Of a DNA stretch of 64,000 nucleotides, positions 1 to 59,003 are shown in pieces. The stretch's first letter is position 1, and each line of letters starts with the position of its first letter. Below the pieces are notes generated by a model. That model did no database searches and was not told where the DNA came from. It was given only the letters and a program-made list of their open reading frames with translations. This DNA comes from Proteromonas lacertae (lineage: Eukaryota > Sar > Bigyra > Opalinata > Proteromonadidae): positions 1 through 64,000 of the forward strand of contig NGBS01000889.1 of the NCBI GenBank assembly GCA_002245135.1, given 5' to 3'. The translations under genes were made by a program, and so were the position numbers.

Positions 1-1571
1 TTTAAATAACATATACTTCCATCCTCTTTATGAATTTCTCTCCAATTTTTAACACCCATTCTTCAATTCTTTCACTTTCTTTCACTTTCTCTACAATCTT
101 TTTCCTTTCTATTTCAGCTAAGGCAGTTTTCTGTGCTTGTTCTAATAAGAATTTATTCTCTTTTCTCTCTCTTTATTTGTTCTCTTTTTCAACTGTTCGT
201 TTAATTCAGCTTCCCATTTTATTCTTTCAGCTTCAGCTTTTCTGCTTCTCATATACTTTTGCTTTTGTTCTTCATCTTTTTTTGCCTTTCTTAATATTCT
301 CGCTTCTCTTCTACATATTCCTCTGTAACATTTCTGAATCTTTCAAAGCAGATGATATTCTTAATTCTTTACCTCTTTTTCATGTTTTAATTTCTATTGG
401 CATAAAATAAATTTTATAAAATATACTAATTTCTTAAAGTTCTTCTTTGCTACATGTCTTCTCCAAATTGATTGGAATTTTACAGCTGCATTTATTCTAA
501 TCCATATAATCATCTTCAGTTTTCATCTTAATTCCAAAAGTATATATCTGGCGAATATCAGCTCTATGTAGTGTATGAACATCTGTTTTAGGAAATTGAA
601 ATATCTTAAGTGGGCAATTCTTACTTCTAAATGTTTTGCCATTCCAATTTGTCTCTTATAATGATCAAGAACCATTTTCATACCTTTCAAACCTCTTAAA
701 TCCATTTTAGCATAGTACTTTCTATAAAATCTTTGTATTAACTTTGCAGATTTTGTTCTTTCAAGTTGTCCAGTTTTCATTAGTTGAGTAATATGTCTAT
801 CTCTTACCATTCTGAAGAAACTTTCTATTTTTACTGCTGATTTATAAGCTCGAACCCTCTCATCTTCTCTCTTTCTTGACTTTCGAATCTTGCATTCTTT
901 ATTGCATGTCTAGCTTCATGACATCTCCAACAACATTGTATTATTATTGCTTTTTAGATTGATATCTTATTACAACTATCTTTTCATTATATTTTCTTCT
1001 TCACATACATTCTAATCATTGATTGTATCTTTATTGCTGCTCTATCAGGTTTTAGACATCTATTCATTTGTATAAAATCATATAAATATTTTATACATTT
1101 TTAAGTCGCTTTTGTCTTTCCAATCTTTGTCTTTCTAATTCAGCTAATCTCTTCTTTTCTGCATCCATATTGTCTAATACTTCTCTCCTCTTTTGGAATC
1201 TCTTTCTTAAATGAATCTTATCAACAAAATGTCTACAGAATGTTTGAATTATCTCATAGCATTGTTTTAACTTCTTTGAATACATTTTAGCCAACTTCCT
1301 ATTATTTAATATATTAATAAATTCAAAATATACATTCTAATAACTGATTGAATCTTTGTTGATAGTTTATTCTTCAGATTCATCAATTTTATTGCTTTAA
1401 CTCTTCTTTTAGCTAAGAATCCTCTGGCTATTGTATTGATTATTGTTGCTTTTTCATTCTGTATTCGAACTATTCTTTGTCTTTCCTTTTCATTTATCTG
1501 TTGTCTTACAGTTACACGATCTTTCAACTCTCTTCTCAACAGATAATTATGATAGTGTCTTTGAATCTATT

Positions 1572-1603
<32 letters not shown>

Positions 1604-3128
1604 GCAACAGCAGCTTTATTCTTATATAATTTCTTATTCAATAGTTTTCTGTATATTTTTCTTCCTTTATGACCTCTATATACTCTCTGTATTATTTCAC
1701 ATGCTTCTAATCTCTTCTGTTTTCTTTCTGCTATTCTTCTTAATCTTTCTTTATATTTCTTTTGTCTTATATATCCTCTCCAGATCGATTGAATTCTTAT
1801 AGCACATTTTCTCTGTAAGATTCGTTTTTCTTCAGCAATCTTCTTCTTCTCCAACATCCATTCTTTATGTGTTTTAGCTATTCTTCTTCCTAATACTCCA
1901 CGATATAATCTTTGAATCATTGTAGCATTCTTATCTAAAATTGATCTAAATACTTTCCTACTATTCACTCGACAAGCAACAAATTCAAATAACAATGCTT
2001 TGGTTATATTCTTTCTTTTATCTCTTTTTGCTACATTATTATCAATCTTTAAGAAATTTACATATTTCACTGCTAAATGTTTTCTAACCATACATTGAAT
2101 CTTTATAGCTGCATTTCGTCTTATCCATTTCTTCTTTCTTATATTCTGTTTTACAAATCTATCAAAACCAGCATATAATCTACATTTTAATGCAATATCT
2201 TCTAAGTTATATAATGCAAATGTAATTAATCTTTTCTTCTTTTCAGCTGCATAATACATCTCTTCATGCAGTTTTATATCACTTACAACCTTTTTCCACT
2301 GATTCATCGATTTTTGGAATAATCTGTAATATACTCTTATCCATACATTAAATATTGCTGCTGCTGCTCTATATTGTGTAACATTGTTATTCTTATGATC
2401 TTCAAGGAATGATAAAGGCAAAAAATCAAATGACTGTTTACACATAGCATCTATTCTTTTTGATAATGCTCTTTCTTCATTATATACTCTATTTATTCGA
2501 TCTACATCAGTTTTAATTTTTTTAACTTTCTTTGTTGAATTTATGTCTGGTAATTTGGTCAAACTACTTATACTCTTTGATTTCATCTTCTTTTTACTCT
2601 TACATTTAGTTTCACTTGATACTGTTGCGTATGATACAGTCTTAGCTTTTTGATTTGGTGGTGAATTTGATCTGGTTAAATCTTGACTTGTTATTAGTAA
2701 ATCTCTTACATTTAATGATTTATAAGTTGAAACACGTGTTGATTGTTTCTTTTTCTAGTATAGCAATAGAAATATATGTTATTACTTTCTTTCTTTTCTG
2801 TTCTAATTCAAATTCTTGAGCTGTTTTTATTTTTTCATCTGTACTATTCCATGGTGATGTATTCCAACTGTCTTTTGTGTGAGCTATTCAATAAATGAAA
2901 CTGAAATACGAAATTTCATGTGAAATATGGAATAAGTATCAAGAGGTTCTTCTGGAGTAGTTCCAGAATCATCTATATCTGACACATATATCTTTTCTTG
3001 TCTCAACGGGGATGATGTTCTGGTGCTTGGTGAAACAGTTTCTAAATATTATATTCACAAATCTTACCTGATGGCTGATTTGAATAACGATTAGATTTCC
3101 TATAGATAATAACTAATGACAAATACAT
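1..3128 (-). CDS. IQ-motif-rich protein, 3' end beyond the window
   Basis: The predicted protein is basic and has at least eight IQ-like helices, for example IQRLYRGVLGRR, IRIQSIWRGYIRQKK, IIQRVYRGHKGRK, INTIARGFLAKRR and FQSIWRRHVAKK. IQ motifs normally bind calmodulin or myosin light chains, so a cytoskeletal or axonemal scaffold is likely; that is inference. The start at 3128 is taken from splicing four short exons (introns mirrored from 10731-10756, 10889-10914 and 11013-11043). Further introns lie at 1567-1602 and 1299-1333. Downstream of about 1080 the frame breaks at several places (near 1000, 930 and 870) although IQ-like peptides continue in shifting frames to the window edge. Those breaks may be sequence errors or decay. 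The gene is partial. Confidence 0.75.
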
Positions 3129-10669: not shown

Positions 10670-12196
10670 ATGTATTTGTCATTAGTTATTATCTATAGGA
10701 AATCTAATCGTTATTCAAATCAGCCATCAGGTAAGATTTGTGAATATAATATTTAGAAACTGTTTCACCAAGCACCAGAACATCATCCCCGTTGAGACAA
10801 GAAAAGATATATGTGTCAGATATAGATGATTCTGGAACTACTCCAGAAGAACCTCTTGATACTTATTCCATATTTCACATGAAATTTCGTATTTCAGTTT
10901 CATTTATTGAATAGCTCACACAAAAGACAGTTGGAATACATCACCATGGAATAGTACAGATGAAAAAATAAAAACAGCTCAAGAATTTGAATTAGAACAG
11001 AAAAGAAAGAAAGTAATAACATATATTTCTATTGCTATACTAGAAAAAGAAACAATCAACACGTGTTTCAACTTATAAATCATTAAATGTAAGAGATTTA
11101 CTAATAACAAGTCAAGATTTAACCAGATCAAATTCACCACCAAATCAAAAAGCTAAGACTGTATCATACGCAACAGTATCAAGTGAAACTAAATGTAAGA
11201 GTAAAAAGAAGATGAAATCAAAGAGTATAAGTAGTTTGACCAAATTACCAGACATAAATTCAACAAAGAAAGTTAAAAAAATTAAAACTGATGTAGATCG
11301 AATAAATAGAGTATATAATGAAGAAAGAGCATTATCAAAAAGAATAGATGCTATGTGTAAACAGTCATTTGATTTTTTGCCTTTATCATTCCTTGAAGAT
11401 CATAAGAATAACAATGTTACACAATATAGAGCAGCAGCAGCAATATTTAATGTATGGATAAGAGTATATTACAGATTATTCCAAAAATCGATGAATCAGT
11501 GGAAAAAGGTTGTAAGTGATATAAAACTGCATGAAGAGATGTATTATGCAGCTGAAAAGAAGAAAAGATTAATTACATTTGCATTATATAACTTAGAAGA
11601 TATTGCATTAAAATGTAGATTATATGCTGGTTTTGATAGATTTGTAAAACAGAATATAAGAAAGAAGAAATGGATAAGACGAAATGCAGCTATAAAGATT
11701 CAATGTATGGTTAGAAAACATTTAGCAGTGAAATATGTAAATTTCTTAAAGATTGATAATAATGTAGCAAAAAGAGATAAAAGAAAGAATATAACCAAAG
11801 CATTGTTATTTGAATTTGTTGCTTGTCGAGTGAATAGTAGGAAAGTATTTAGATCAATTTTAGATAAGAATGCTACAATGATTCAAAGATTATATCGTGG
11901 AGTATTAGGAAGAAGAATAGCTAAAACACATAAAGAATGGATGTTGGAGAAGAAGAAGATTGCTGAAGAAAAACGAATCTTACAGAGAAAATGTGCTATA
12001 AGAATTCAATCGATCTGGAGAGGATATATAAGACAAAAGAAATATAAAGAAAGATTAAGAAGAATAGCAGAAAGAAAACAGAAGAGATTAGAAGCATGTG
12101 AAATAATACAGAGAGTATATAGAGGTCATAAAGGAAGAAAAATATAAAGAAAACTATTGAATAAGAAATTATATAAGAATAAAGCTGCTGTTACTG

Positions 12197-18042: not shown

Positions 18043-21000
18043 TTAATTTGAACTAGCCAATGGATTATTAGATACTAATTTACTAGATTTCTTTATTACA
18101 GCATCATATATTATTCCTTCAATTTCTGGATCTAAAAAGAATCTATCTGATTCAGATATTGTGGCAATTTCTATTGGTAATCTATCCAATATATGAGGAG
18201 TTACTCTGAATCTTCCTTTACTGGCTTGTTTCTTTTGTAGTTTTGACTTTTCACGACTTGTACTTCCACTATGAGATAAAGAACTTGACATCCATGTTGT
18301 TCTTAACTCAAATAAATATATATAAGATATTTTATTTCCAAACAAAATCAATACGATAAAAAATACTCCTACTTCTACACCAATTCCTCTTATTCCCATT
18401 AATGTATCTGGTTCTGAATCCATTAAATAGTTTAATGGAATTAATATCACTCCTAATATCAATATAACTGATATAGTTGATAATAAAGGCATTGATTCGT
18501 TAAACTCGGATGATGCTTTTCTTACACTCCATGCAATTTTAGCACCAAATAAACAAGAGATTGTTATAACTGCGATTTGAATAAATACAAAGGCAATATT
18601 CTCTGTACATTCTTGTAAATAAATATCTTCTAAATATGTTGAATATGTTTCACTGTATGATAATTCTGGTTTTGATCTATCTACACCCCACCATATTGCT
18701 AAATATATTAATTCGATTATTATAAACACGCCTATCATCTTTAAAATCATCCAATTAGACATTTTTACTCTCATTAGCTCTCGGTTATTAAATAATTTAT
18801 GGATTCTCCAAGCTTTACATATTAATATTGATAATAAGAACGTTATGGCTGAAGCTAAAAACCATACTCGAAATGCACATATATACTCTTCACTAGGCTT
18901 CACTACAAATATATCACCAATACAAGCTAATAAAGCTAAGGATAAGAGAGTATAGAATAGAAATATTGGACTAGAACTTTTAATTATTTTTGATTTCTTA
19001 TATTTGAATATTATATACGCAATTAAAATACAGAAGCAACAGATAATTACAGATAAACTAATAATCACATTTCTTATAGTATCACTTAATTCATATGTTG
19101 AAATGATTTTAGTATAAATACAATCAGATGGGTTTAAATATATTGGTATTGCTTCTAATACATTTTCTTTTCCTTGCTTTGGATGAACTTGCATTATACT
19201 ACTTTCTGACAATCTAAATATATATACATTCTTTGATATATGATTGTTATTTAATACTTTCGTTACACCAGATGGAGAATTCAAAGAAATATACTTCAAA
19301 CTTAATTCAATATAATCATTAGAAGGCCATTTAGTTGGTGAATAATCTGATGAATATTCAACAGCTGTTTTCCATAAATATATTGATGTATAACTATTTT
19401 CATATAACTCATTCAGTTCAAATGCATTTTGGAAATATGATGTTGTTAATTTTTGAAATTTGCTAGATTCCCTTACAGATACACCTGAAGAATATGGAGA
19501 TACAACAAAAGAACCTTTTATTAATGTTCGATAATCTGATGCAATATCTGCAGGATCATATTTTAGGAAGAATAAAATCATATTTTTGTATTTTGAACTC
19601 TTCGTGATAAATTGAACGAATTTTTCATTTTCTGAAGCTATAAATAGATTAATTATTGCTATTCTATCATAAGTATCCAATATTTCTTCTATTTTGAAAA
19701 TTACTTCATTTGCTGCTACATCATAAAATGGTGAAAACATTGAATAGCCAATCACATTTATGCCTACTTGTTTAAACCCTGAAGATATTACAAATATTTC
19801 ATTTTCAGTAGAATTTCTTTCAGGTCCAACTATATAAGCTAAATTCAATCCAATTGTTGAAAAATATTGTAATAAAGCTTGAGTTCTTTGGTTTATACTT
19901 AATCCTGTTACTATTAAATTCTTATTAAATGTATAACCATCATCTCTACCTGTAAATATAAACATAGAATCTCGATTCTCTAAGTATCTATTTACTTCTT
20001 TATTACATTCAGCTGTTATACATCCAAAGAATGTATTACTCTTTCCTAATTCAAATATACTTCGAACATTTACAAATCCATTATTTATAGTTATCCAACT
20101 ATGATTAGATTTTAATTCCCTTCCTAATACACCTCCATTTGCATTGATTTCATCAATAATAACATCTTGTAATAAACAATTATACTTCTCAGTTTTACCT
20201 CCTAAATCTGTTTCATGTAAGAATGTCAATACAATTGGATCACTACAGTATTTTGCACCTTTATTTTCATCACTTAAATCACAGGAACAGCCAAAATCAT
20301 CATTATTATATGGATCATATAATTTTGGAATATATAAAGCAGTTGATCCCCAATTTATTTCATTATGTCCATTTTCATCTATTTGAGCACAATATATTCT
20401 TCTCTTCACATAATTATTTGTATGAATTTCAATTTGACCAGATGGAACATCCAAATAATAATGAAAATAATCAGTAAAATCAGATACTTTAATAGAATTA
20501 CTTTTTTGTACTATTGTTTTCCATATTTGCATTGCAGTATAAGCAGATTCAATCTCTCCATTTATTGATATTTCCATACCAATTCTTGTATGAACAATTT
20601 TATTCATTGTTTCAGCCATATATGGAATATCAAGTTTATTATGTTCACTATCAGCTAATTCTTCAAAATATGAATTCAAAGTCATCATTCCATATTTACA
20701 ACTGTTATCTAAAAACTCAATATTCATTGAATTTAATATAACATTTATAAATCTATATTTCGGATATCTAAACTCAGTTTCTTCACAAATTGCCATAAAA
20801 AATTCAGATTGTATTTCATCACTATTAAGAATAGTAATAATATTACCACCATCATTCAAAGCACGATTCATATCTTTCAATACATTTCTTAATGTTGTAT
20901 ATACTTCTGTACCTTTGGATGTTAATTGCATATTTTGCATTTTATTTACGATTCTTTCAGATATATTTGAAGCATAATAATCATTAGTGTGTAATATAAA

Positions 21001-24000
21001 TGCATCAGTTCCTATTTCTAATAATTTTCTGATTGTTGCTTCTGCTAATTGATAAGGCGTTACATGTGTTTGTATCACATGCTTATAACAGTCATTGCCA
21101 TAAGAATTTCCTATATGAAAAAAATAATTTGAACTGTTTGAAAACATTGGACCTAATATTTCTAATGCTTCTGCTGAATCTCCACCAAATACAAACTCTA
21201 TATTGTCATTATCTAACATTTCTTTTGCTTTTTCTTTCAATATTTCATTACTTGATTGACTGTCCAATAATTTATAATCAATATAATATCCTATTAATTT
21301 GTCTGGACTATCATTTATTTCATCCATTGCTGCTAATATAGCATCAAATAGTAAATTACCTTTACTACTTGATTCACCTGTCATTGGTAATATTATTCCT
21401 ATTACTACTGTTGGAACACTTTCACCATCTAAGATATTTGGATCAGAAAAATCACACCTTCTATAAGCAAGTCCTGAATTCTTCAACACTTCTGGCACTT
21501 GAGCATCTCCTGCTTTGTAAGTTATTTCTGTGTATTTATTTTCATCATACACAAACATCAATTTTGGAATTCTTGCTAAATATTGATTATTACTAAAATA
21601 TATTTCTCCTTCTATTGTTTCATATTTAAAACCTCTTAATACATTCTTTACTTTAACTACTGACAAATCTGCTACCAAATCTCCATTTTCATAGGTTATT
21701 GTTTTAGGTAATGTATTAGCAGATTTAGCTAATAACATACCAGATGTTCTTGCTCTTACCATTAAATCAGAAACTACTACTTCTGAATCAATTCTTTGAT
21801 ATATCTCATTCACAAATTTTGTATTTATTTCACTTGGATCATCTTTCCAATAAAATCCAAAATACTCATAATTTGTAAAACTTAATGGCAAGATCTCTTG
21901 TATATTCTTCATTACAATAACATTAGTTGTATAAATATAAAAATTTTCATTCATTGCTGTCATTAATTTATCAAATACTACTGAATGTCCCCAATATAAA
22001 ATGCATTTCATTGACAATCCTCCATCACTTGATAATATATCTAAAACATCATTAATATTAAATTCATCATCTTTACTATAACTTATATAATCATGTGGCA
22101 TATAATGACTATTCATAAATCCAACAGTATACTCTGCGATTATATCATTTTCAGGTGTTATTACAATCAATTTATCATAAAGTCTATTTCTAATTACATT
22201 CAAAGCCGAATCATAATATTCATAATAATTATTAGCAACAAATATATGACTTGCACATTTATCTCTTTCAATTGTATTTAATTGGAATAGTATGCTTTTT
22301 GTTTCGACAACTGGATTTATAATTTCTAAACAATCATCACTTAAGTAACTAAATACAGCTAATGGATTTTTATCTATTATATATTCATAGATTGTAGTTC
22401 TGCATGAATCTATATTAGATCCTTCATCGTAAATATCAGGTTCTATTGTATAACCACCTATTCCACCTTCATCATTTATATTACTAACCATTAATTGAAA
22501 TGCATCAACTAATCCTACAGTTTCTTTGGAAGATGTACCAGTTAAAGATGCTACTAATGCTAATCTTTTCACTGGAACTTTATATTTATCAGCATCCTCT
22601 CTTCCTGAACTAAATGAACAAATATAACTATAGCTATTGTCTAAATTCCAATTCCAGGCTTTAGGTGCTTCTTGATCCAGTTTACTGTAAATTAAATTAC
22701 AATATTGACCATTTGAATCATATTTGATGATAAAAAATGGTGATGTGATATAATGACTATCTGTTAATGTCAATACTCCACTACCTACTTCTAATGTTAA
22801 ACCATAAGAAGCGCTTCTGACTTCATCAATATTAAAACTGCCTGCTTTCTTAGCTGCATATCCATATAGCATTATACTAGCATAAGTTGATTCAAACAAC
22901 CCAGTTGGCATGTTCAAATCTACATAATTCATAACTTTCTTTATATAATTTGTATTTGTATCAGTAACTGCATCATATGTATATCTTACAAGCTTATATA
23001 CATCCTTACGTAATGAAACATCCAAATTATCAAATTCTTCTAACTCTAATAAAGTATCAACTATTCCAATTACACTTGTATCTACTCCTAATCGTGTATA
23101 ATACATCATAAATGTTTTAAATATATCAATCTTTGTAACTGTTGATATTATTATTCCATGTTTCAATTGTTTAGTAATTTCTACTACTGTCTGATATGTA
23201 ATTGGATTTGAATCACTAACTAAAAATGACCCAGCTTTTTCTATCAAACCTTCAGCTTGAGCTTCAATCATTGTATTAACATCAACGGAATAATAAATAT
23301 CTTCAGCTAAGGTGAAATAATAATCATAATCAGTTTGAAGTAGATATTCAACTAATCTTGTAACATATTGATTTGAAACAAGGGATGTATAAAACATATA
23401 TTTATTACATTCTTCTCCTACTGATAATCTAGGATAATATAATAATCTGTTTGTTTCAACTAGTTTAGTTTGGACAATTGATTTACATTGTCCTCTTGTA
23501 CATCCAACAAATGCTACAAGGTCTTTATCATCATCATATTTATCTAATAATGTTTTTAAATACTCTTCATCACTATGATAATCCATAAATTCCATTAGTA
23601 ATATATGACCATTAATTGGTCCTTCATCATACAACTCTCGAAATGCAGTTATTGCTGCTAATATCGCTTTTGAATGAACTTTCTTCATATCACCAGATGT
23701 TGAAAATATAATTCCAATCTTCTTTGATGGTAATAAATATTTCGTATTATTATATTGAAAACTACATCTATATAATGGTTCAGATCTAAATATATTACCA
23801 TAAGGTCTATTTACTAACATTATAGAGGTTTGCCAAATCACTTTCGTTTGTAATTTACCATTATCATCCAAATACCATTGTTTATAAGATAATACATTAT
23901 CCATATTATTATTCTCATGAAATGTAAATTCACCCAATGCAGTGTTGGTTGGATATAAATAAAGATTTCTTCGAAATTCTTCATAATTGATCGATTTACA

Positions 24001-27000
24001 TTTACTTGCTATATTTATAAAGATTTGAGTCATTGCAAATCCTCTTGCTGCTATTATATTTGTTAATCCAACAAATGTAAACAGTTGGTTAAAATAGTCT
24101 TGTACAGTCACTAAAGCATCATTATTATCATCTTCAATAAATGAATCCCAATAATAATGTCCAGCTACATCATTACCTAGTAAACTCACAGCTACATTAT
24201 TCATATTTATATTGAATGAATAAAACAATGGTGGTAATAAACCATGAGCAGTCATTGCAGGTATTAAATTATACTTTGCATCTCCTTCTAGCATATTAAT
24301 CAAAATAGCACCTTGTGGAGATAATCTTTTTATTGTTTGAGTTACATCAGATACATCAGTTTTACTTAAAGGAAAACGATAAACTGCTTTAAATGATCTT
24401 CCTAAATATGCATAATCATCAATAAGATGTTGAGAGAAATATGCAGAATATGTTGTATCTGTATAAAACAAATATTGATCAAATGATGATAAATCCATTA
24501 AGATAGGTATTAATGTATACTATTGAAATAATAAATAAATATATAAATATACAAAACTAGAATATGAAAGACCTGAATAATATCCATTATAATAACATTC
24601 TTCACCTTCATAATCGGTTGGGAAAAAGAATAAAAACTTCAATTCATCAGCTGCTTCCATCACAGCTCTTCTAATTTCTACTGTAAAACCACCAAATATT
24701 ACAAATATATTCTGTTCTTCTACCATTTTAATTACATTCTTTTTGGCTAATTCTGGGTCATCTTCATCATGAATAATCCATAACATCAAATACATACCAT
24801 CAACTCCACCTTCATCATCATTTTGTTTATCAATAACTGTATATATAGCAGAATAATATAATAATGCATCTCTTCTATAGGCTGGATTGTTTGGAAGTAA
24901 TAATCCTATTTTGTAAGATGGTTGTTGCATATTACCATGCATTCCAGTCATCCAATCACATTCAAAATATTTGGCTCTATTCACTTTCATTCTATAACTT
25001 TCTCCTTTCCATACATTTGATACTGTCAATTTATAATCAATAAAGCCATTTTCATTTATAACACCAAAATAAGAAGCATGTAAAAAGTCATTATCCATTG
25101 TGAATTTCAAATTACCCATTGCAGTTTCCATTGTTGTAACATACAATTGGGTTTGAATATCTTTTAAACCAAATGTCTGTGATTCAGTAATTACTTGAAG
25201 AAACCATTTTGTTGAGGCACTTACAACTAAATCTTTTAATTCTATATAATCTTCTTTATCAGCAATATAATCATAAACCTGTCTAAACTGTTTATCTAAA
25301 GGATTGTCTGTTTCAATTATTGAACTATAAACATAATGACCTTTAGCAAATGTACCATTAAAATGGGTATTTGTATTATCAAATAAATATATTGTATAAT
25401 CTTTTGACATATCTTTTGAAGAACTATATTCTTCTAATGAACCAAAGAAATTATAATAATTTCTAAACAGCGATTGTGATTGATCTCCTTCTAATAGTGC
25501 AACTATTGAACAACCATTAGGTAAACTCTTTCTTATTATGCCTAGATAAGAATACAAATCTTCATCATATGTAATTTCATCCACTTCTTGATATAATTTT
25601 ACATCAATACCAAATGCTGTTAAGATATCCTTAATAAAAGTGATCCTATCACTATATAATTTATTAGCAGTATATAAAACGACAATATCTTTGGATGTAT
25701 GATATAATAAATGCAATAATGTTGGATATACTTCTTGTCCTTGTGTAACTGATGCAGATATTATTTCTTGAACACATACATGACCTTCATTAAAACCAGT
25801 ATAAACAAATAATGCATCTAATGACTGAATAATATCTTGAATAATATCTCTCTTTTCAGGATTACATCCACCAATTATCAGATTAAACCCACGATTAAAG
25901 AACCTTATTATTAATGGAGCAGCATCATCTAAAGTTTGAGGACATTGATATAATTCAGTATACTATTTATATAAAAAATTATAATAAAAACTATAATTGT
26001 AATATACAACTGGTGTTCCTTGTATCCCTCCATTAAAATTGATTGTCTCAACATGTTCTTGTACTAACATATAATCCAAAAATCCTGAAGAATCAGTCAA
26101 ATCAAATAAACATGCAATTCCTATAAATACAGTAGATTTCATGGTTAGATTATTTGCCAATGAGAAATCTGCAACATAATACTCTTGGTTGTTTTTCTAT
26201 GTTAAAATTAATAAAAGAATAAAATATAATATATACTAGTTGATTGTATGGTTTAGCATTAATAGGAAATGGAATTTCCATAACAATCTGTAAATCATCT
26301 TCAAGAATTTTGCCAATAAACATATGACTTGATATGTAATTAGATTTATCTATTTTTACATTTTCATGTAAACCTTCATAAGTAAGACTATATATTGCAT
26401 TTCTTAATTCAGTTGAAGATGAATTTGTACTAATAGAAGCTTTTGCATTGCTAATCATATTAATACTATCATAAATGATAACAAATCCTTGATTAACAAT
26501 ATCAAATGATTTACCCTTTGATTTATCCAAGAATGCTTTAAATTCTACATATTTTGGATGTATTTTACATAAAGTATTGTATGAAGTTATTGCATAATGA
26601 CCAGTGTATTCATCACCATAATAATCATCATAATCAAATAACATTAACGGATTTTTCTCTTTATCATATTTATTAGCAGTATAATATTCATGCTACAAAT
26701 GATGGAATATCAGTATCTAATATACAAATAATAGCGATTTGATCATTAGCATTATTATCAATTACATCATCAATTTTAGCAAATGCATCAGCTGGTTTTG
26801 TATCATTATACATTATTGGTTCTACAAGTGGTGGTTTTTTAACAAATTCATACAATAATTTCAAATAATAGATTCTTTGTTCTAACAACATAGTCTTCTT
26901 GCTTGAAACAACAATATATTTCTTGAATTTATACAATATCCAATAGAATGGATATTCTAAATATTGATGAGTGATATGATTGATCTATTTATTATATTGA

Positions 27001-29875
27001 CAATAGATAGATATAAAATATACAAATAATATATTTCTATATGCAACTTCACCATACGCTTTATCCATCACTAATAACAATTTATCCCATTTATCTAAAT
27101 ATGGTGATAATAAATCCTGTTCAGCACTTGAGGAAGTTCCAAAGAAACATAACAAATGTGAATTATCAGCATAACGTGATGCTTTTTCAATTAAATTCTC
27201 AATATTATCATCATAACCTGTTGCTTCGATTATCACATTATATCCATTAATGCCTCCATTTTCATTGATTATATCTGCTGTTAATAATAAGGAATCTAAT
27301 TTCTGCATTCCAGCTTTAGTAGTATGATCAAATAGACTAGCAACAATATAATAATTTTGTAACTGTTTTCCTTTAACACTATCAGTAGACTTCCATGAGC
27401 AAGTATAAGCTTTATTTTTATAAACAGGGGTTGTTCTAACAATTATATCGTCATGAACTACAATAAAACTATCAGTATCATTAAACTGTATCAATCTTAC
27501 AATACCTTCACCATATCCACTAAAATATACGTTATAAGGTCCAGCTGCTGGATCATTAATCTGTAAATTGTATAAATACTCTTTGTAATGAGATGGATCT
27601 ATCGAACCACTCAACTCCATTGTTTGCTTAATTAATTGAAATAAATTATAAAATACTCCAACTTTATTTGTTAGAGGATAAGGTTCATTCAAATTTGATT
27701 CTAATGATTGTTTAAATTGTTTAAGAACTGATGAAGGTTCTGGATATTTATCATAAAAATGAGTTGCAAAAGTAACATTTGCAGCATATTTAATATCCAT
27801 TGATCTAATCATAAGTTCATTCAAATTGAATGATATAACATGAAAATCATTCTCATGTGTAAGGTTATGTCTTTGCAATGCTTGTAAAACTGGTATTTGA
27901 TATAAATCTTCAGCGGTTATTACTATTACACCTCCACTAGATGGAGTAATATTAAATACATCAATAGTAATATTCTGCATAAAATGATCTAAATAATCAT
28001 CATCAGTGGATATAAAATCTCTATAAATTAAATTGGAAGTATCATATCCAAACGCCATTAATCTTTCAATTAATAATTCTCTTGTATAATACCCATATTT
28101 ATACTTACTACCTAAAATCAATACTCTATCAAAACCTAAACTATTAATATATCTTACTGTTGGAATAATATAATTCAAATTAGTTGGTTTTCCCTATTAT
28201 CAATATATAATTATAATAATAATACATATATTACATTCCCTTGACAATCATCTCCTTCTACTGTTCCCATAAAGAAGAAAATGATATTATCATTACTTAT
28301 TTCTTTACTAATTTCCATTCTTTGTTCAGATGAACAAGATAAGAATATTGTATTGATTTGATATTGTTCACTTTTATCATTTATTGCTTCTATTGTTTCA
28401 GTTATATTTTCTGGATTTAACTCTATTATATAAGGCTGTATTGGTATTTTCATTATTCCACTCTATTTATATTAATAATAATAATAATAATAATAATATA
28501 CAGAAACATCATTATAATAATCACACATAAATATCAGAAAACTGGTCAATAATCTTTCTTCTTCATACAAATAACCATTGGTCAATGAATGTACAAAACC
28601 AATAGTAATAGAATTAATATTAACAACTCCAGTTTCAGACTTCAGAAAATTACAAGTCCATTCCTTCTTATCACTAATAATTTGAGATGGTTCAAAGTGT
28701 ATTGTCAATGGTAAAGTATATTTTAATTTCAATTTACCATCATTTTGTATTTCATATATATATTGAGTATGACTAATGTAATTATTACTCACTAACTCTA
28801 TTTCACCTCCTCCATATCCTGTTGGATTGTTATAAACTATGTTGAAAAATGAATCAGTATTTTCTAATGATGATTGAGTCATTGCTTGTGCAATTAATTG
28901 AATATTTCCCATTCTATTCAATAATAATATGCATTATAATATAATAAAATATACATATAAAGAGCTTCATAATCTGATTCAATATTTACTGTAGTTTTAT
29001 AATTATCTATGTATAATTTAGTGTAATTGTTTATCATTGTTTCATCATATCCTCTAAATATTAAATTACCTTCATTATTTGCAACATATAAACCACCTAA
29101 ATCTTTGATTTTCTCAATTGTTAATCCACCTTCTAAATATATTAACTTTGGAACATTTTTATTGTTAGTTTTTAACCCACTTATTTCATCTAATACATAC
29201 TTGATTGTTGTATCATCATCAATTGTTGTGAATATGGCAGCTTTTAAATTTGTATCTGAAATATTCTTTACATAATCTGTGATTTTATTACTCAAATCAT
29301 CATCATCATATAACATATTATAAGCATCTAATCCATAAAATTTACCAGCTGCCTTTAATCTAACAGCATAAAACTCATCTAATCCCTTATATTTATTATT
29401 ACCTAAAAAACCAATAACATCCACTTGATTAGATAATATATACATAACTAAAATAAAATATAATAAATAGATATATACATGAATGTATTTGAGGTATTAT
29501 ACTTGTGCCCATAATAAAGTGTTTTTCACATAAACCGATTGAATAGGTATTTAAACACCACATGTAGGACGAATTATTAACAAGAAATTCACGAGTATAA
29601 TTCAACACATAATTATCACAAAATCCAAATATAAGAGGAGTATTTGCCTTAAATGTGTCTCTGAAGCAAGTCTTAATAGCCTCTTCAGCGTCTGCGTCAG
29701 TAGCTTTATATTTACACTCCAGAACATCTACATCAGCTATTTCTGAAGTCTGATTTTTTAAATACAGATCTATCAGACTATATTTATTATGATCATCTGT
29801 AATTCCATCTCTTCCTAAAAATCCTATATTTATAGAAGCAACTAAAGGCCATATCATAAAATAAATTAAAAACAT
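18043..29875 (-). CDS. Giant class C GPCR with nine tandem Venus-flytrap modules
   Basis: Start at 29875 encodes a signal peptide (MFLIYFMIWPLVAS). About ten exons, the last 2,151 codons long, give roughly 3,800 residues. Nine consecutive periplasmic-binding-protein type 1 modules can be followed, starting near 29840, 28615, 27350, 26150, 24925, 23730, 22580, 21420 and 20245. They resemble the bacterial urea/amide-binding protein UrtA: FFFPTDYEGEECYYNGYYSG, NDVAGHYYWDSF and the EVGSGVLTLTDSHYIT-type ends. Linkers mostly carry an aromatic-x-Cys-x-aromatic motif. One seven-helix class C (GABA-B-like) domain follows (about 19090-18290) with a 100-residue cytosolic tail. Ordinary class C receptors have one such module. 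Introns were checked and restore frame, except for a one-base +1 break near 26691. Two adjacent genes are possible, but no second signal peptide or internal stop-start gap is seen. Confidence 0.85.
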
Positions 29876-29990
29876 CTTTATAACGACATGAAACGCATAA
29901 ATTTTTTATTTTTCTTTTTTCATAAAGAAAACAGACAAAACAAATGCAATAATAAAAAAACAAATTTATTTTCTTCATTTTTTAATTTAG

Positions 29991-31603
29991 TTACTGAATG
30001 AAACAACTGTTTTGATTCTCTGGATTGTGTCTGCCTGATACTGTTACTGGAGCAGCATTAATACCTCTTCTGTTTAATAAACATCTGAACCACATTAATC
30101 TCAATTTAGCAGATTCAATATCTTTTAAATCTTCATCTTTTGACCACATTCTTTCACCTGCAGCTGCTGCTCTTGGCCATACAGTATTGAACCAATCAGA
30201 AACATCTACAGTTTCAGCCCACATGCATACTTCACCACCTAAAATATTTTCTTTGTATTGTCCATCAATACCTTCATCTAATTTATTGTTATAGAATGTT
30301 TCCCATTTAGTATCAAGATAATCTAAATACCACATTCTATAATTAGATAAGATTCCTCTATATCCAGATTCTACAACTTTCTTTAAGTTCTCTTTATTCA
30401 ACCAAATATGAATAATTGTTCTCTTATCTAATTTAGTACCAAAAGCATTCCACACTTCTTCCCAATTCACTGGATTACGATTTTGATTTAAAACTATTTG
30501 ACCAGCTTTGTTTACAATATAATGATAACCTTCTAAATTATTCATTCCATGTTCTTTTAACCAGTTAGCAATTCTTTCAACTTTGCTCCAACAAGCTGTA
30601 TCTACTTCATCACCACCTAAATGGAAGAAATTATCTGGGAATAAACCAGCAGCATGTTTTCTTCCAGTCATTTCACTAAACATACTATCTAAGAATTCAT
30701 AAGTTTCATTCTTTGATAAATCTAATGGATTTGGACAATCTTCAGATGGACATATTTCTGGAATACCTTTACACCAACTAGTACTATGACCAGGAACATC
30801 AAATTCTGGCATTACTCTTACACCTCTCTTTCTAGCATATTCTACTATTTCTTTTACATCAGCTTGTGTGTATTTTTCATATTCAGTATAAGCACCTTTC
30901 CAGAAATTTGGATAGTTCTTGGATTGAATTGGTTGACTTTGATCATCACTGATATGCCAATGTAATACATTGAACTTAGAGAATGTTAATGAATCAATAA
31001 TCTTTCTAATGCTTTTTGTTGATAAATAATGACGAGATGTATCCATTAAAATACCACGATGAGAATAACTTGGAGCATCTTCAATCTTATATGGAGCTTT
31101 TTTGATAAGGTATGTTCTTTCTGAATAATCATAAACAACAATTTGTGATAGTGTCTCTAAACCATGATAAGCACCATAAACAGTTTTTGCTTTAATAGTA
31201 GCAGCATTTCCGTCAGCTGGGATGGTCAATTCGTAAGATTCATCTACACCAATTTGTAATTCAGCATCAAGGTCTTCAACACTGATATCTACTCCAGCTA
31301 AATATACTCCATTCTTTGTTTTTGGAGCTGTATGTGGGAATATTAAATTGTAATATCTATAAAAACATATAACCTAGAATTAAAATACCTTACTACAGCA
31401 TCTGTTAAATCTTGATGGGGAGTGATTATGTTGAATTTAAAACTGTCACGATTCACTAAAATAGTCTTATCACCAGTTGTTAATGATTTAGGTTGTGGCC
31501 AAATATGGACATCAAGCTCGGATGCTGGATATCTTGGATCTTTAAGTTGGCCTGCAAGTGTTGTAGCTAAGAACAATAATGTTAAAGCAAGAGTAGCTTT
31601 CAT
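29991..31603 (-). CDS. Beta-hexosaminidase (GH20), minus-strand paralogue
   Basis: Exons 31389-31603 and 29991-31356 join to 526 residues. A signal peptide (MKATLALTLLFLATTLAG) precedes the GH20 N-terminal alpha/beta domain (VHIWPQPK) and the catalytic TIM barrel. The catalytic Asp-Glu pair is in HLGGDEVDTACW, and HRGILMDTSRHY and LHWHISDDQS are typical of the family. The enzyme removes terminal GlcNAc/GalNAc from glycans in lysosomes or outside the cell. An in-frame ATG lies six codons further upstream; the chosen start gives the better signal peptide. The length is normal for the family. It is head-to-head with a paralogue at 31777. Confidence 0.95.
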
Positions 31604-31776: not shown

Positions 31777-33381
31777 ATGAATAAAGCAATTGTTGCTCTT
31801 TTCTGCATCTTGTCAATTTGCAGTGCTAAGAGTATATAGTTTTCTAATTTATCATTAGATTTAAAATATCCTGCGTCTGATCTTGATGTTCACATTTGGC
31901 CTCAACCAAAACAGATATCAACAGGTGAAACAACATTAGTCGTCGATAAAAACTCATTCAAATTTGAAGCTCTCACTAAGTCAGCTGATTTAGAAAAAGC
32001 TTTCGAAAGATATCAATATATCATATTTGATCATCAAGTTCCAGATGTAAACAGAAGAGCAGCTGTAGTACTCGACAAAATCACCGTAACTGTTGATGAT
32101 CTTAAAGCTGAATTACAATTAGGTTTTGATGAGTCTTACAACTTAACAATCCCAAATGATGGTAGTGCTGGTAGTATTCATGCTAAAACTGTCTATGGTG
32201 CTTACCGTGCTATTGAAACATTCTCACAAATGGTAGTCTATTCCTTCAACGATGAAAAATACATCATTAAAGCTGCTCCATACCATATCTATGATGAACC
32301 AACCTTCAAACATCGAGGTATTTTATTAGATACAGCTCGTCACTTTGAATCAGTTCCAACCATTAAGAAATTCTTAGATGCTATGTCCTATGCTAAATTA
32401 AACGTATTACATTGGCATATTGTTGATGATGAAGCTTGTCCAATTGAATCAGAAGTATATCCAACCTATTTCTATGGTGCTTACACTGAATATGAAAGAT
32501 ACTCAACTTGGGATGTTAAAGAAATAGTAGAATATGCAAGATTAAGAGGTATTAGAGTTATTCCAGAATTTGATGTTCCTGGTCATGCTAGATCATGGTG
32601 TAAAGGTTTACCTGATATTTGTCCATCCACTGAATGTTTAACTCCATTAGATGTATCAAAGAATGAAACATTTGAATTCTTACAAAAGTTCTTCGGTGAA
32701 TTTACAGGTGGTGTAAGACGTTCTGGTTTATTCCCAGATGATTTCTTCCATTTAGGTGGTGATGAAGTAGATACAGGATGTTGGAGCAAAGTTGAAAGAA
32801 TTGCTAACTGGATTAAACAACAAGGTTGGAGTAATGATGATGCTTATCATTATTTCGTTAATAAAGCTGCTAATATTGTAATGGATCAAGGTAGAAATCC
32901 AGTAAATTGGGATGATGTATGGGAAACATTTGGTACTAAATTAGATAAGAGAACAGTCATTCAAGTATGGTTAAATCATAAGAATGTTGGTGCTGTTGCT
33001 AATAATGGTTATAAAGTGATTGTAAGTAACAACGATGTATGGTATTTAGATCATGAAGCTACAACATGGGAATCTGTTTATCAAAATGATTTATATCAAG
33101 GTGTTAATAAAGAAAACTACCAAAATGTATTAGGTGGTGAAGTTGCTATGTGGAGTGAAAGAATTGATATTTCTGATTTATTCAGCACTGTTTGGCCAAG
33201 AACTGCTGCTGCTGCTGAAAGAATGTGGTCAAAACCAGAAGATTTAACTAACATTGACTCTGCAAAGAATAGATTATTATGGTTCAGATGTTTATTAGAT
33301 AGAAGAGAGATTAATGCTGCTCCAGTTGAAAAAGGTGGAAGACCAGCACCACCAGAACCAGGTAGTTGTTTCGCTCAATAA
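31777..33381 (+). CDS. Beta-hexosaminidase (GH20), plus-strand paralogue
   Basis: Exons 31777-31831 and 31859-33381 (27-nt intron) give 525 residues. It has a signal peptide (MNKAIVALFCILSICSA), the N-terminal GH20 domain (VHIWPQPKQ) and the barrel with HRGILLDTARHF, LHWHIVDDEA and the catalytic pair in HLGGDEVDTGCW. The paralogue at 29991 has the same domains and its own intron further downstream, so intron positions have changed since duplication. Both should be lysosomal or secreted exo-hexosaminidases; a division of labour between GlcNAc and GalNAc substrates is possible but not visible here. Confidence 0.95.
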
Positions 33382-53804: not shown

Positions 53805-56800
53805 TCACTTTCCAGCTGCTAATCCTTTCTCTTCTTTTGGAGCTGCAGCTGTGGCTTTCTCTGGAGCTGATTCACTATTCTCTCCATTCTTCTCTCTAGC
53901 TTCCATTGCAGCTTTAGCTGCTTGTGCTTGAGCTGTTCTCATTCCTCTTCTAGTAGCTCTCTTCTTGGCAGAACTAGCACGAGCATATACACAGAATCCA
54001 ATCAATAATAAGAAGATTACACCAGCTATTGAAGCAACTACTATAACTGCTGTTGAGGTTTTCTTACTCACTATTTCTTCGGCTGAACAATTATCTTCTA
54101 AAGTCTCCCAATGAGGATTCATACCAGCTGTACATCTTCTTGTCATTGTTCTTGTTGATCCTGTACATTGAATTGTTACTGTTTTACCTTGTTCAGTTGC
54201 TGGCCATGAACCATCAGTCATACATCTAACTGTATCTACACGAATGTGAATATTTCCATATAATTCATCAGAAACTGGATTTTTAACTGTTACTCTGAAT
54301 GTGGTTAAAGCCATTTCTGCTTTGGGAATTCCTGTTATTTCACCAGTTGATGTATTGAATTTCAATCCTGGAACTGTTGTTTCAAGAGATGGAGTTATTG
54401 CATATTCTAATTCAGCACCATATACACTAAATGTTGGAACTAATCCAGCCACATCAAAATCTTTAAATACTGTTGAGGTTTTATTACTAATAACAAAATC
54501 TTTAATCATCTTTAATGAACAAACAAGTGAAAATACTGGTTCTGGTCCCCATGATGGACTTCCACCTAAATCATTACACATTCTATTCTGTTTACCACTA
54601 TAACCTTCTGGACATTCTCTTAAACATTCACTTCCAGCTACTGTTGCAGCCCATTTACCATCTGGAGCACATAACTTGTTGTTACAAGCATCAAATGTTA
54701 CTTCCATCAATTCTAAACCTTTTTCATTTGGATTTGGATCTGAATCACATGCTGCTAAACCTGGAATACCAATTGTAGTAACATTAATTAATACACCATC
54801 AAAAGAGTCTGACATACCATAAATATAAAATTCTCTTGTTAATTTACGACTGTCCTGCCAATTACTATCATCATCTGGATTATAACTATCTCTCCATATA
54901 ATTTGATCTTGCGAATCTAATAATTTCCATGTTTTACCACCATCAGTTGTTGCATATAAATCCCATGAAAATGGATCTCTTCTATTACCTGTATCTCCAC
55001 TTGTTAAAGTATATTTGTTGAAGAATTCTAGATTGTCCATTTGGCCACATGAATGTTAACTCAACACCACTACAACCACTTCTTACATAACCTTTTGTAT
55101 TTTTATTACCATCAACCCAATTATTCAATGGTGAATCTCTATATACATAATCTGGACCATAATTGTTTGATACATCCATTCCTCTTACAGTTCTTCTACT
55201 ACAATCAGCAACTATATAATTGAAGAAAGCAGCAAATGGATTGATATTTACACTATTTCTGTGTTTATGAACTTCTGCAGCAATATAATTCACACCATTT
55301 TGTAATATATCAGCTGAAGCACCAGTTTTTCTTAACACTTATATTACTTCCTGTGTATATTTCTGTGGCATAAGTATTAGCTTGTTGATTTGCTGGAACA
55401 TTTCTTCTGTAGAATTCTTTGTTGTTTAAGTAAGCAACAATACCAGCATCATATTTAAAACCAGCTTCAAAAGCAGCTATCTTTCTAATATCAAAATCAT
55501 CAGGAATTGTGAATGTTGTTCTGTAATAAGTTGTATAAACTCTATCACCTCTATCTGGATAACTTCCTGGAATATAAGATTCCCATTCACCTGGTTTGAA
55601 GTTATTATACCAATTTCTATTATTAGTTGTTGGACTATATTCCCAAGCTGAATTTGGTGGACTTAAATAAGCAACATTGAATACTTGAGTTTTTTCCTCA
55701 TTACCATTATATATTGTATCACCATCAGCTAAAGAAATAGTCAAAGCATTTGAATCCCATCCTCCACTAAGACTTAAAGTGTAATTATCTGGATACATAC
55801 AGAATGATCTTTTTGTTGTTGTATATGGATAAATACCAAAATCCCAATTTATAATATAATCTTGTTTATCTTCTGGTGGTTCTAATCCTCTGAAAAAGTA
55901 ACCATAAGCATACCAACCAGCACCACTAGATCCTGTTGAACTAGCAGCAATTTGAGCAGGGAATGATCCTTCTGGACATGGTTCTGTTTTGATTGTTAAT
56001 TGAGTTGTTCCTGATCCTGCTTTATTTGTACATGTTACTGTAAATGTTAAACCATCTGGATTGTTATACATTGAATTACCAGTGATTGTTCCTGTTTTAT
56101 TATCAAATACTAATAAATCAGGAAGATTAACTGGATTAATTGAACAGTAATCAGCACCATAACTAATAATTGGTGATATAACAGCACCAATACCTCTTTG
56201 AATAGTATAAGCACCACCATCACCATCTGGATATTCGATTTGAGGTGATGAAGAAGAACCAATATTAACTGAAAATTGAACTACAACATTATCTGGAGAA
56301 TCAACTCCTTTCACTTTATCATTTAAAGTATATTTACCATATCTATAGATACTCTTTCCTTCACCATAAACCCAATATTCACCTGGAACTGAATATTTAT
56401 TTGGACCTACTGTAACTTGATAAAGTCCATCATCAACACATCCGTATTTATCAAATGTACCAAATGCTGTTCCTGATCTGTCCATTATGACAGCTCCATC
56501 AAATGTTGATAATTTCATTGTTTGATGAATAGCATTTCCGAGATTTGCACCACCAGTAAATACCATTCTCACAAACGATTTTCCTGATTCACATGCATCA
56601 ATTTGAATTGGTATTAATGCTTGAGTAATACCACCATCAGATTGACCAAAGATTGTTATGGTTCCTGAAGCTGATTCTAATGGAATTCCACTTATTGCAC
56701 CTGTGGCTGAATCTACACTTAAACCAAGTGGTAATCCACCTTCTACATAATAATTTACACCTTCAGGAGCAGTTGTTGGAGCTACTGCATCTATTGATAA

Positions 56801-59003
56801 TCCAATTGTACCAGCTACTGTTTTACCAGTATAATCAATTGGAATTGGAGCTACATATTTTACTACTTCAATTTCTACTGTCGCTGTTAATACACTTGTT
56901 CTATCAGTTGAAGTGGCTGTTACTGTATATTTTGTTCTGTAAGATGAATCAACTGTTGGTGTTCCTGAGATTACACCAGTTCTTGAATCACATCTTAAAC
57001 CGGATGGCAATGATGGATAAATACTGAATGATTGATATATCTTTTTTGACATAAAGATAATTGGTCTATTTGCTTCAAGTTGAATTTGAGACATGTAAAT
57101 AGCAACTGCAGTTTCATAAGATAATGATGATGATGGTAAGTAATAATAATAATCAGAAGGAATATAATTCTTTTCCATCATATCTGCACCTCCTGACCAC
57201 CATAACTGTACTTGCTTCAATGAATTTGTATATGATTTTAAATATGTAAACTCAATTGCTCTTGGACCTTCACTTGTTGTTAATGAAGCTTGACCTGATC
57301 TTGTATTTGTTAAACATTGACCTTGAGTTGTAAATTGTTTCACATCTTGAGAATTTTGAGCAGTCCACATAACACGTGCAGAATCCATAACATCTGCACC
57401 ATAAATATAAGTACCAGATCTTGGGAAATTGATATAACCTTCATAAACTACTTTCAAATTTGTTCCATACTTTGCAATTAAACCTTCAAATGATTTACTT
57501 GATTTGTCTCTATTGATTGAAGCAATTACATGTTTTGCTATTAATGTTTCACCTTCACAACTGTCAACATAGCATGACGTTCTCTTACATGAATAATAAC
57601 TTGCCATTATACCTGGCTGTAAAATATCTGTTGAAATTGTAACAATTGTAATATAAATATCAGTAGTTGTTGTTGAAACACCATTCTTAGCAGTAATCTT
57701 ATATTTTGTAGATGTTTTTTCTATTGATGGATTACCTGTAATTCTACCATTAGCAAATACTAAACCAGTTGGTAAAGCTGGTTCAATATACCATTCAGTT
57801 GGACTTCCTTCAAAACTTGGTTGAATATTAACAGCAGTATAAATTCTAATAATATAATCACTTGATAAATAAGTTAAGAATTGAACTGGTTGTTGAGGAC
57901 CAGATATAAATTCACCACCTAACACTTCATAATACATAATACCAGCTGAGAATATCTTCCATTCAACATAATATTGAGTTGCACCTGTATTTTCATAATG
58001 TAATGAAGTAAATGCATGATCACCTTCAGTCATTGGAATTCTAACAACAACACCAGTTGTATAACCAATATGAGCAACTGGATGAGTGAAATTATTATCT
58101 AAAAATACCCATACACAATCATCAACTTTGAATCTGAATGAGTAAGTACCTGTTACAGGAGCATGAATAATACCATCATATCTAGTGAAATATCTTTCTT
58201 GAGGAAAAGCAGCTGGACAATTTCCATAACAATAATGATCTAATTCAGTGAAATAATAAGTGGTAATTGGATTCATATTTCCATTTTCAAAATCATATAA
58301 GTATGGATCATAAGTTTCAACACAACTTCCTCCTTCTTTTGGATCAGCATAACCATTTGGAGAAATTCTAGCCATTATACCAGGTGGTAATTTTGTATTA
58401 GCAACTACAATTATATTCACAGATACTGGTAATGAACCAGCAGTGTTTTTAGCTGTTACAACAATGGTAATAGCATTTGTAGCTGCAGTTGGAGTTCCAC
58501 TAATTGCACCAGTCACTGGATCTAAAGTCATTCCTGCTGGAATGTTGTTTGTTTGTTTTTCGAATGAAGTAGCTTCTGGATCACATTTAGGACCTTGAAT
58601 AATTGTATAAGTCTTCAATGGAATTTGAATTCTATCAGTAACACCATAGGTACAAGATTGAATTGCTGCAGTAACAGACATAGAGATTGTTGTTGTGGAT
58701 GTATCACCTGTAGGTCCTGTAAAGGTAATGATAAATGTAGTCTTGGGTAAAGCAGATGTTGGAGCACCTTTAATTGAACCATCACTTCCTAAATACAGAC
58801 CAGTTGGTAAAGCTGGATCAGATCCTGCATTTATCGGTATTGGTAAGCAAGATGGAATGATTTCTACCTCTTGATTTACAACATATGAGAAATCTGTGTT
58901 CCCATTGTTGTAAGTACACCTTGGGCCTTGTGCATAACCTATAAAAGTGATAACAAGCTAATATACAAGCAACAAATAAGAAGAATAGAACTATTGAGCT
59001 CAT
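53805..59003 (-). CDS. Large surface protein with Ig-like, PA14 and discoidin-like domains
   Basis: A signal peptide (MSSIVLFFLFVAC) is followed, after a 28-nt intron, by about seven putative-Ig (He_PIG) repeats with the signature PxGLxxxxxTGxIxGTP, for example MTLDPVTGAISGTPT. Two PA14-like domains are interleaved (about 58370-57930 and 57610-57190; the first includes TGTYSFRFKVDDCVWVF). A galactose-binding-like region, a discoidin-like segment (YTLTSGDTGNRRDPFSWDLY) and two sushi-like modules (CAPDGKWAATVAGSEC, CMTDGSWPATEQGKTV) precede one membrane helix (VIVVASIAGVIFLLLIGF) and an Ala/Lys-rich tail. It should be a type I adhesion or sugar-binding protein of about 1,700 residues. Two one-base +1 breaks (near 55325 and 55025) interrupt the frame. 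Confidence 0.85.

Follow-up and report, generated by a model that had tools for sequence, protein, structure and literature searches.

The GABA-B receptor (GABBR1/GABBR2), a heterodimer that binds GABA and activates Gi/o, and the bacterial proteins UrtA, which binds urea for ABC importers, and AmiC, both single soluble proteins, are the described systems that most resemble the two parts of the gene analyzed here. This gene lies on the minus strand, from a start codon at 29875 to a stop codon at 18043-18045, in a window (the whole stretch of DNA that was analyzed, 64,000 nt long) of NCBI assembly GCA_002245135.1, contig NGBS01000889.1, from Proteromonas lacertae. It appears to encode a class C G-protein-coupled receptor (GPCR) in which nine Venus-flytrap (VFT) modules precede one seven-transmembrane (7TM) domain. 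Metazoan class C receptors have, according to the available part of PMC12716839, one ligand-binding domain (ANF or Cache) ahead of the seven helices, and the GABA-B receptor has one VFT, of ANF type, in the same text, whereas the modules described here are nine and of UrtA type. Among microbial eukaryotes, the fungal and gut-fungal class C receptors have likewise undergone large expansions and carry bacterial-type binding domains, but their N-termini, as far as the accessible portions of PMC3251606 and PMC5168858 describe them, extend up to 1667 and 1600 residues and are mostly of other domain types, compared with ~3,470 residues in the window receptor. The class C receptors of diatoms, also stramenopiles, lie near GABA-B and include a periplasmic binding protein (PBP) domain in some cases, but have N-termini of 40-730 aa (partial text of PMC3727952). 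Dictyostelid Grl receptors share with the window receptor their microbial-eukaryote origin and bacterial-type N-terminal domains, but that domain is ANF or BMP-type, or none is recognized, and the available part of PMC10445921 mentions no tandem array.

The initial annotation knew of no described receptor with nine modules, and our literature search agrees: no tandem-VFT class C receptor was found in the literature on class C layouts, within the accessible parts of PMC5168858, PMC3251606, PMC12716839, PMC10445921, PMC12842992 and PMC3727952, with a smaller multi-module receptor possible in PMC3251606. The layout thus appears to be far from described class C receptors, although its 7TM domain places it in that class. 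We think it probable, with moderate confidence, that the gene encodes a GABA-B-like class C chemoreceptor with nine tandem UrtA-type VFT modules on one 7TM domain, that it belongs to a large family, and that its outer modules, as we propose, serve several ligands. A family of this kind would show that a long serial array is tolerated, or used, in the coupling between VFT closure and the 7TM domain, and would provide a natural system for studying how one receptor chain combines several binding events. It would also indicate that chemosensory receptors have expanded greatly in a lineage that is probably a relative of Blastocystis, a gut protist.

The nine modules and the seven-helix domain

One uninterrupted frame on the minus strand (24519-18046, 2158 aa) contains by itself five Peripla_BP_5 stretches (318.3 bits) and one 7tm_3 match (124.6 bits, against a curated cut-off of 33.5), and the remaining modules lie on exons upstream of 24519 that are joined in phase via eight short introns. 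Read in this way, the gene consists of a hydrophobic N-terminus, nine back-to-back VFT modules of ~385-396 residues each with hardly any linker sequence between them, a seven-helix domain of class C, and a short cytoplasmic tail with the stop codon (18043-18330), the N-terminal ectodomain comprising ~3,470 residues and nine type I modules. The start codon and hydrophobic N-terminus (29831-29875), which frame and hydropathy mark as a putative signal peptide, account for the single hydrophobic segment found at this end by the hydropathy scan; the ectodomain has no other, and the C-terminal end has seven (eight windows, two overlapping). The paralogue models discussed below likewise begin with a hydrophobic N-terminus, but their starts were chosen via a hydrophobicity filter.

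To score the modules, we used a family profile built from 84 modules of paralogues and relatives, none of them from the window, although the 84 had themselves been selected with a window-derived profile. Module 1 (28646-29875 including the N-terminus, on exons 29875-29479, 29447-28955 and part of 28913-28502) is the weakest whole module at 68 bits; it has no Pfam match by itself and is recognized by the family profile only. Module 2 (27387-28645) scores 147 bits (Peripla_BP_5, 72.2 bits), module 3 (26167-27386), whose two halves lie astride a frame break, 82 + 61 bits, and module 4 (24946-26166) 217 bits, with a match to the relative P0003 at 27% over 382 aa. The scores of the remaining modules are 245 bits for module 5 (23752-24945), 291 for module 6 (22597-23751; Peripla_BP_5, 124.9 bits), 206 for module 7 (21436-22596; Peripla_BP_6, 52.2 bits), 278 for module 8 (20266-21435) and 237 for the membrane-proximal module 9 (19135-20265). 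All nine exceed their shuffled counterparts: across 198-200 shuffles per module the top score was 8.2 bits, and those of module 1 reached at most 8.0.

In a PDB search that left out modules 1-3, modules 6 and 8 aligned to UrtA urea-binding proteins over almost their whole length (module 6 to 8hic at 8.2e-16; module 8 to 7s6f at 4.4e-23, residues 9-389 of 390), and module 9 (8hic, 7.9e-12) and the first part of module 5 also matched UrtA. The nearest solved structure to modules 6 and 7 is 8tg1, a related binding protein (4.5e-18 for module 6), followed by the amide sensor AmiC. Mean identity to UrtA is 13-23% depending on position, and the motif blocks around the UrtA cleft vary from position to position, with partial conservation at any given position (for example, GRDDG at module 9), the UrtA-like cleft-region blocks being best kept in module 5 and partly in modules 6 and 8. 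By eye, seven of the nine modules finish in a Cys-containing block resembling the CDW end of UrtA. Judged by the sequence profiles, the nine modules are predicted to be of the type I PBP, or VFT, kind. The initial annotation had placed a receptor with a signal peptide, nine VFT modules and one GABA-B-like 7TM domain at 18043-29875, and both its coordinates and its strand are correct; Pfam, the family profile and hydropathy bear out the predicted parts, the signal peptide as a hydrophobic N-terminus.

The 7TM domain (18331-19089) finds its nearest solved counterpart in GABA-B2 (GABBR2, 1.1e-12). Class C traits named in the available text of PMC3727952 are a Lys and an Arg at the inner end of transmembrane helix 3 (TM3) and an acidic residue at the inner end of TM6. 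When aligned with GABBR2, the window receptor has K.WR at the inner end of TM3, N-E-S at TM6 where GABBR2 has N-D-S, and IK.SSP in loop 1; one Cys atop TM3 and another in extracellular loop 2 likewise align with Cys residues of GABBR2. As in GABA-B, the VFT is attached to the 7TM domain without a cysteine-rich domain: Pfam scans of the window receptor gave no NCD3G match, and module 9 joins the 7TM domain directly. A genome search for NCD3G also found none, a weak negative since its controls gave no match either. By its 7TM domain, the predicted receptor is a class C GPCR, and it is GABA-B-like; we do not file it as a GABA-B receptor because it has nine VFT modules rather than one per 7TM domain. 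Among possible partners in the genome, G-alpha is represented by 12 matches, seven of them over the cut-off and five of these above 240 bits, with two giving identical scores.

Conservation of the array across genes

The genome (50 Mb, 1181 contigs) contains 132 matches to 7tm_3, with duplicates and split matches counted as matches and not as genes; 123 of them are over the cut-off, 36 of these in open frames that are 2000 aa or longer. We examined 13 paralogous loci, picked mostly for long open frames and therefore not a random sample. Seven were read over 14 kb, and five of these (C830, C356, C116, C624 and C713) could be modeled with nine module matches each, at lengths of 3732-3917 aa, the first module of C713 being incomplete. 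For C283, the model (3758 aa) has eight recognized modules and ~390 unmatched residues that leave room for a ninth, and C1043 gave no model. The models are stop-free by construction, their splice sites are formal guesses, and their starts were filtered for a hydrophobic N-terminus. Two paralogues (L013 and L011) require no splicing assumption: their single frames of 3181 and 3223 aa each contain eight Peripla_BP_5 stretches and the 7tm_3 domain. Evidence independent of the choice of loci comes from the genome-wide spacing of Peripla_BP_5, for which the 112 strongest of 683 candidates were scored. For 106 of these, a 7tm_3 match follows downstream on the same strand within 12 kb, at spacings that cluster near 0.1, 1.25, 2.4, 3.6 and 4.7-5.3 kb (steps of ~1.2 kb), two have the 7tm_3 match on the wrong side and none has it on the other strand. 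Among the scored matches, Peripla_BP_5 is nearly confined to the receptor-array layout.

These data bear on the concern that the array could be an artefact, that is, a row of adjacent single-module genes or a chance run of open frames, a suspicion raised by the exons upstream of 24519 falling in different frames. The paralogous frames of 3181 and 3223 aa unite eight module stretches with the 7TM domain, and module order is preserved both in three relatives and in the module tree described below; we therefore regard an artefact as most improbable, and at the level of the family, separate genes are excluded by the two single frames as predicted. As far as the genome sequence can tell, the multi-module layout is a family trait and not a fusion of neighboring genes. 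The single chain of about 3,800 residues foreseen by the initial annotation is accordingly likely for the family, given models of 3732-3917 aa, but is not settled for the window copy, which has a break near 26690.

Several other features of the family were seen in passing. At position 3, the frames of C116 and C830 appear to contain unspliced in-frame introns. L009-L010 (C283), L017-L018 (C624), L021-L022 (C1043) and L028 (C396) are more divergent long receptors with weaker modules and possibly form a second subfamily. On the contig of the window, a further receptor array is located at C248:113509-120112 on the minus strand; at C248:136105-140668 on the plus strand there are modules, some with identical scores, that have no 7tm_3 match within 12 kb, and some of these pieces are score-identical in C165. 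The contig pairs C134/C1000 and C432/C291 give near-identical or identical scores, which suggests uncollapsed haplotypes or repeats.

Outside this genome, three relatives with the source label lgn, which we take to mean Logan, share 49% (P0001), 40% (P0002) and 28% (P0003) identity with the window receptor. From module 4 or 5 through module 9 they correspond to its modules one-to-one and in the same order, two of them including the 7TM domain, and the species they come from may be closely related to the host. A 76-module tree covering 12 genes, which left out C283, C1043, C396, C624, C244 and module 3 of the window and in which positions 1 and 2 are represented by one row each, recovers each of positions 3 to 9 as a single clade (support at least 99/93). 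Position labels require eight changes on this tree, the minimum possible; shuffled labels required 51.6 on average, and none of 200 shuffles was as low. Because modules at the same position form one clade across genes, we infer that, from at least position 3 onward, the array was assembled a single time, prior to the divergence of these genes, with its order kept since, and that each position has been separately constrained.

The mechanism that we propose starts from what is read in the sequence, namely a single hydrophobic N-terminus followed by nine modules and a single 7TM domain, an array order that is conserved, and the presence of G-alpha genes in this genome. Module 9, which adjoins the membrane and is better conserved than any of positions 3-8, would correspond to the one VFT that a GABA-B subunit has, and its closure would move the 7TM domain. 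Modules 1-8 would form a long outer arm, each binding different small molecules, with urea, amides or small amino compounds as candidates in view of the relationship to UrtA and AmiC. The opening and closing of the outer modules might be relayed down the chain or might alter how the arms of two receptors pair, so that a single G-protein output would report a combination of ligands. If, instead, the repeated modules all bound one ligand and so raised apparent affinity, a single fold family for all modules would be expected, as the profile indeed finds. Yet identity among modules within one gene averages 15.2% and does not exceed 19.7% (158 pairs, eight genes), and motif blocks differ between modules, so we consider such an avidity effect very unlikely. 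Of the functional ideas in the initial annotation, combining several ligands suits the data better than avidity does, since modules within one gene are only ~15% identical while each position is conserved between genes (26-44% identity); the separate constraint on each position therefore appears to favor several distinct sites. It is tempting to go further and speculate that nine individually specialized sensors, each dedicated to a separate ligand class and each conserved since before the family expanded, are set in series on one G-protein switch, in which case one polypeptide would read a chemical mixture and the family would amount to a large nine-input repertoire. We advance this stronger version tentatively and give it somewhat less than an even chance.

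A number of observations weigh against the proposal of a nine-module class C chemoreceptor. The outer positions diverge more than module 9, although not strictly stepwise: mean between-gene identity is 0.435 at module 9 and 0.257-0.360 at positions 3-8, with the lowest value, 0.257, at position 3. This would also be expected if the outer modules were former binding domains that now form a long diversifying arm or variable surface, used for reach, adhesion or shielding, with module 9 as the sole sensor. The many divergent paralogues, which the 132 7tm_3 matches reflect, would suit such a stalk, and so would the scarcity of UrtA motif blocks in module 1 (one row) and, apart from TG, in module 7. 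What a spacer would not need is for each of positions 3-9 to retain its own clade and its own motif blocks, nor would it account for the UrtA-like blocks in module 5 and the full-length UrtA similarity of module 8. We find a stalk unlikely on balance; the pattern of constraint, with separate positions and separate motifs, would argue against avidity and, with less force, against the outer modules being nothing but a stalk. Module 1 has diverged strongly, with 13% identity to UrtA in its one row. In the 7TM domain, the PK motif of TM7, described as conserved in class C in the accessible part of PMC3727952 although not used here to classify the receptor, is absent, and the window receptor has NK (FGNKIS) in its place; by eye, TM7 has SK in P0002 and PK in the paralogue C283, the Lys being common to both and to the window. 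Finally, with introns of the usual form the window copy does not read through module 3, and no GTAT..TAG intron bridging ~26690 was found.

Introns and the frame break in module 3

The eight introns of the window gene are all GTAT...TAG and measure 31-45 nt: intron 1 (29448-29478, 31 nt, GTATAT..TTTAG), intron 2 (28914-28954, 41 nt, GTATAT..AATAG), intron 3 (28463-28501, 39 nt, GTATAT..AATAG), intron 4 (28194-28225, 32 nt, GTATTA..AATAG), intron 5 (26985-27023, 39 nt, GTATAT..AATAG), intron 6 (26197-26236, 40 nt, GTATAT..CATAG), intron 7 (25963-26007, 45 nt, GTATAT..AATAG) and intron 8 (24520-24552, 33 nt, GTATAT..AATAG), with all positions on the minus strand. Introns are similarly very short in the chosen paralogue models (28-72 nt) and mostly GTAT..TAG.

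The break is located at 26689-26692 on the minus strand, as judged from the frames and a position-3 profile, in a stretch that has a single copy in the assembly. Near 26690 one frame stops and coding resumes in another, and the two halves of module 3 align with neighboring parts of the position-3 profile (8-213 at 110 bits and 215-380 at 73 bits). If the more permissive splice rule of the paralogue models is applied, a stop-free path runs via an atypical 73-nt intron (26765-26693, GTAATT..TGTAG); by arithmetic, the chain then has 3,819 residues, and otherwise the assembly reads 1001 + 2843 residues. As introns, both this candidate and a 40-nt GT..AG stretch noted by eye would remove residues that align as coding to the paralogues. 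A true break seems likelier than an intron; what lies near 26690 may be an allele that has been damaged, an error in the sequence or an intron of atypical form.

It follows that the locus could be a pseudogene, or could carry a sequence or assembly error, so that the layout would be real in the family while the window copy yields no full receptor. Coding similarity flanks the break on both sides, and stops are present in some other 7tm_3 matches of the genome, as this explanation would predict. With the usual introns removed, on the other hand, no second break occurs across ~11.8 kb, and the atypical 73-nt intron would give a stop-free path. Because that path exists, we grade a pseudogene or error lower, as possible rather than probable.

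Host lineage and neighboring genes

The ISWI protein encoded in the window groups with Blastocystis (97/95) in a 23-row tree of stramenopiles, plants and unnamed rows, none of them known to be fungal; the tree carries a long-branch warning, and one of its row labels, INCI, presumably stands for Incisomonas. Among the 120 ISWI matches listed out of 7245, those with names are stramenopiles and plants, and none is fungal. From this one-gene tree, the host is probably a stramenopile near Blastocystis. A fungal host had been hinted at by a nearby PA14 protein, whose GLEYA match is below threshold, and by one 7TM search in which the sole match was a chytrid, but is considered unlikely in view of the listed ISWI matches and the tree. 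The PA14 protein, at 55310-58681 on the minus strand, has four He_PIG stretches, a partial PA14 domain and the sub-threshold GLEYA match, a layout of domains that is associated with fungal adhesins.

A scan of 29800-30200 for promoters and terminators, made with a method built for bacteria, gave no signal above chance, and an Rfam scan of the window returned zero matches. Adjoining the receptor gene are two GH20 beta-hexosaminidase open reading frames (ORFs) arranged head to head, at 29994-31298 on the minus strand and 32230-33381 on the plus strand. Two other ORFs of the window, at 1567-2586 (minus strand) and 11212-12147 (plus strand), lie on opposite strands and share an IQ-motif match whose position, residues 259-279, is identical in both, perhaps reflecting an inverted duplication.

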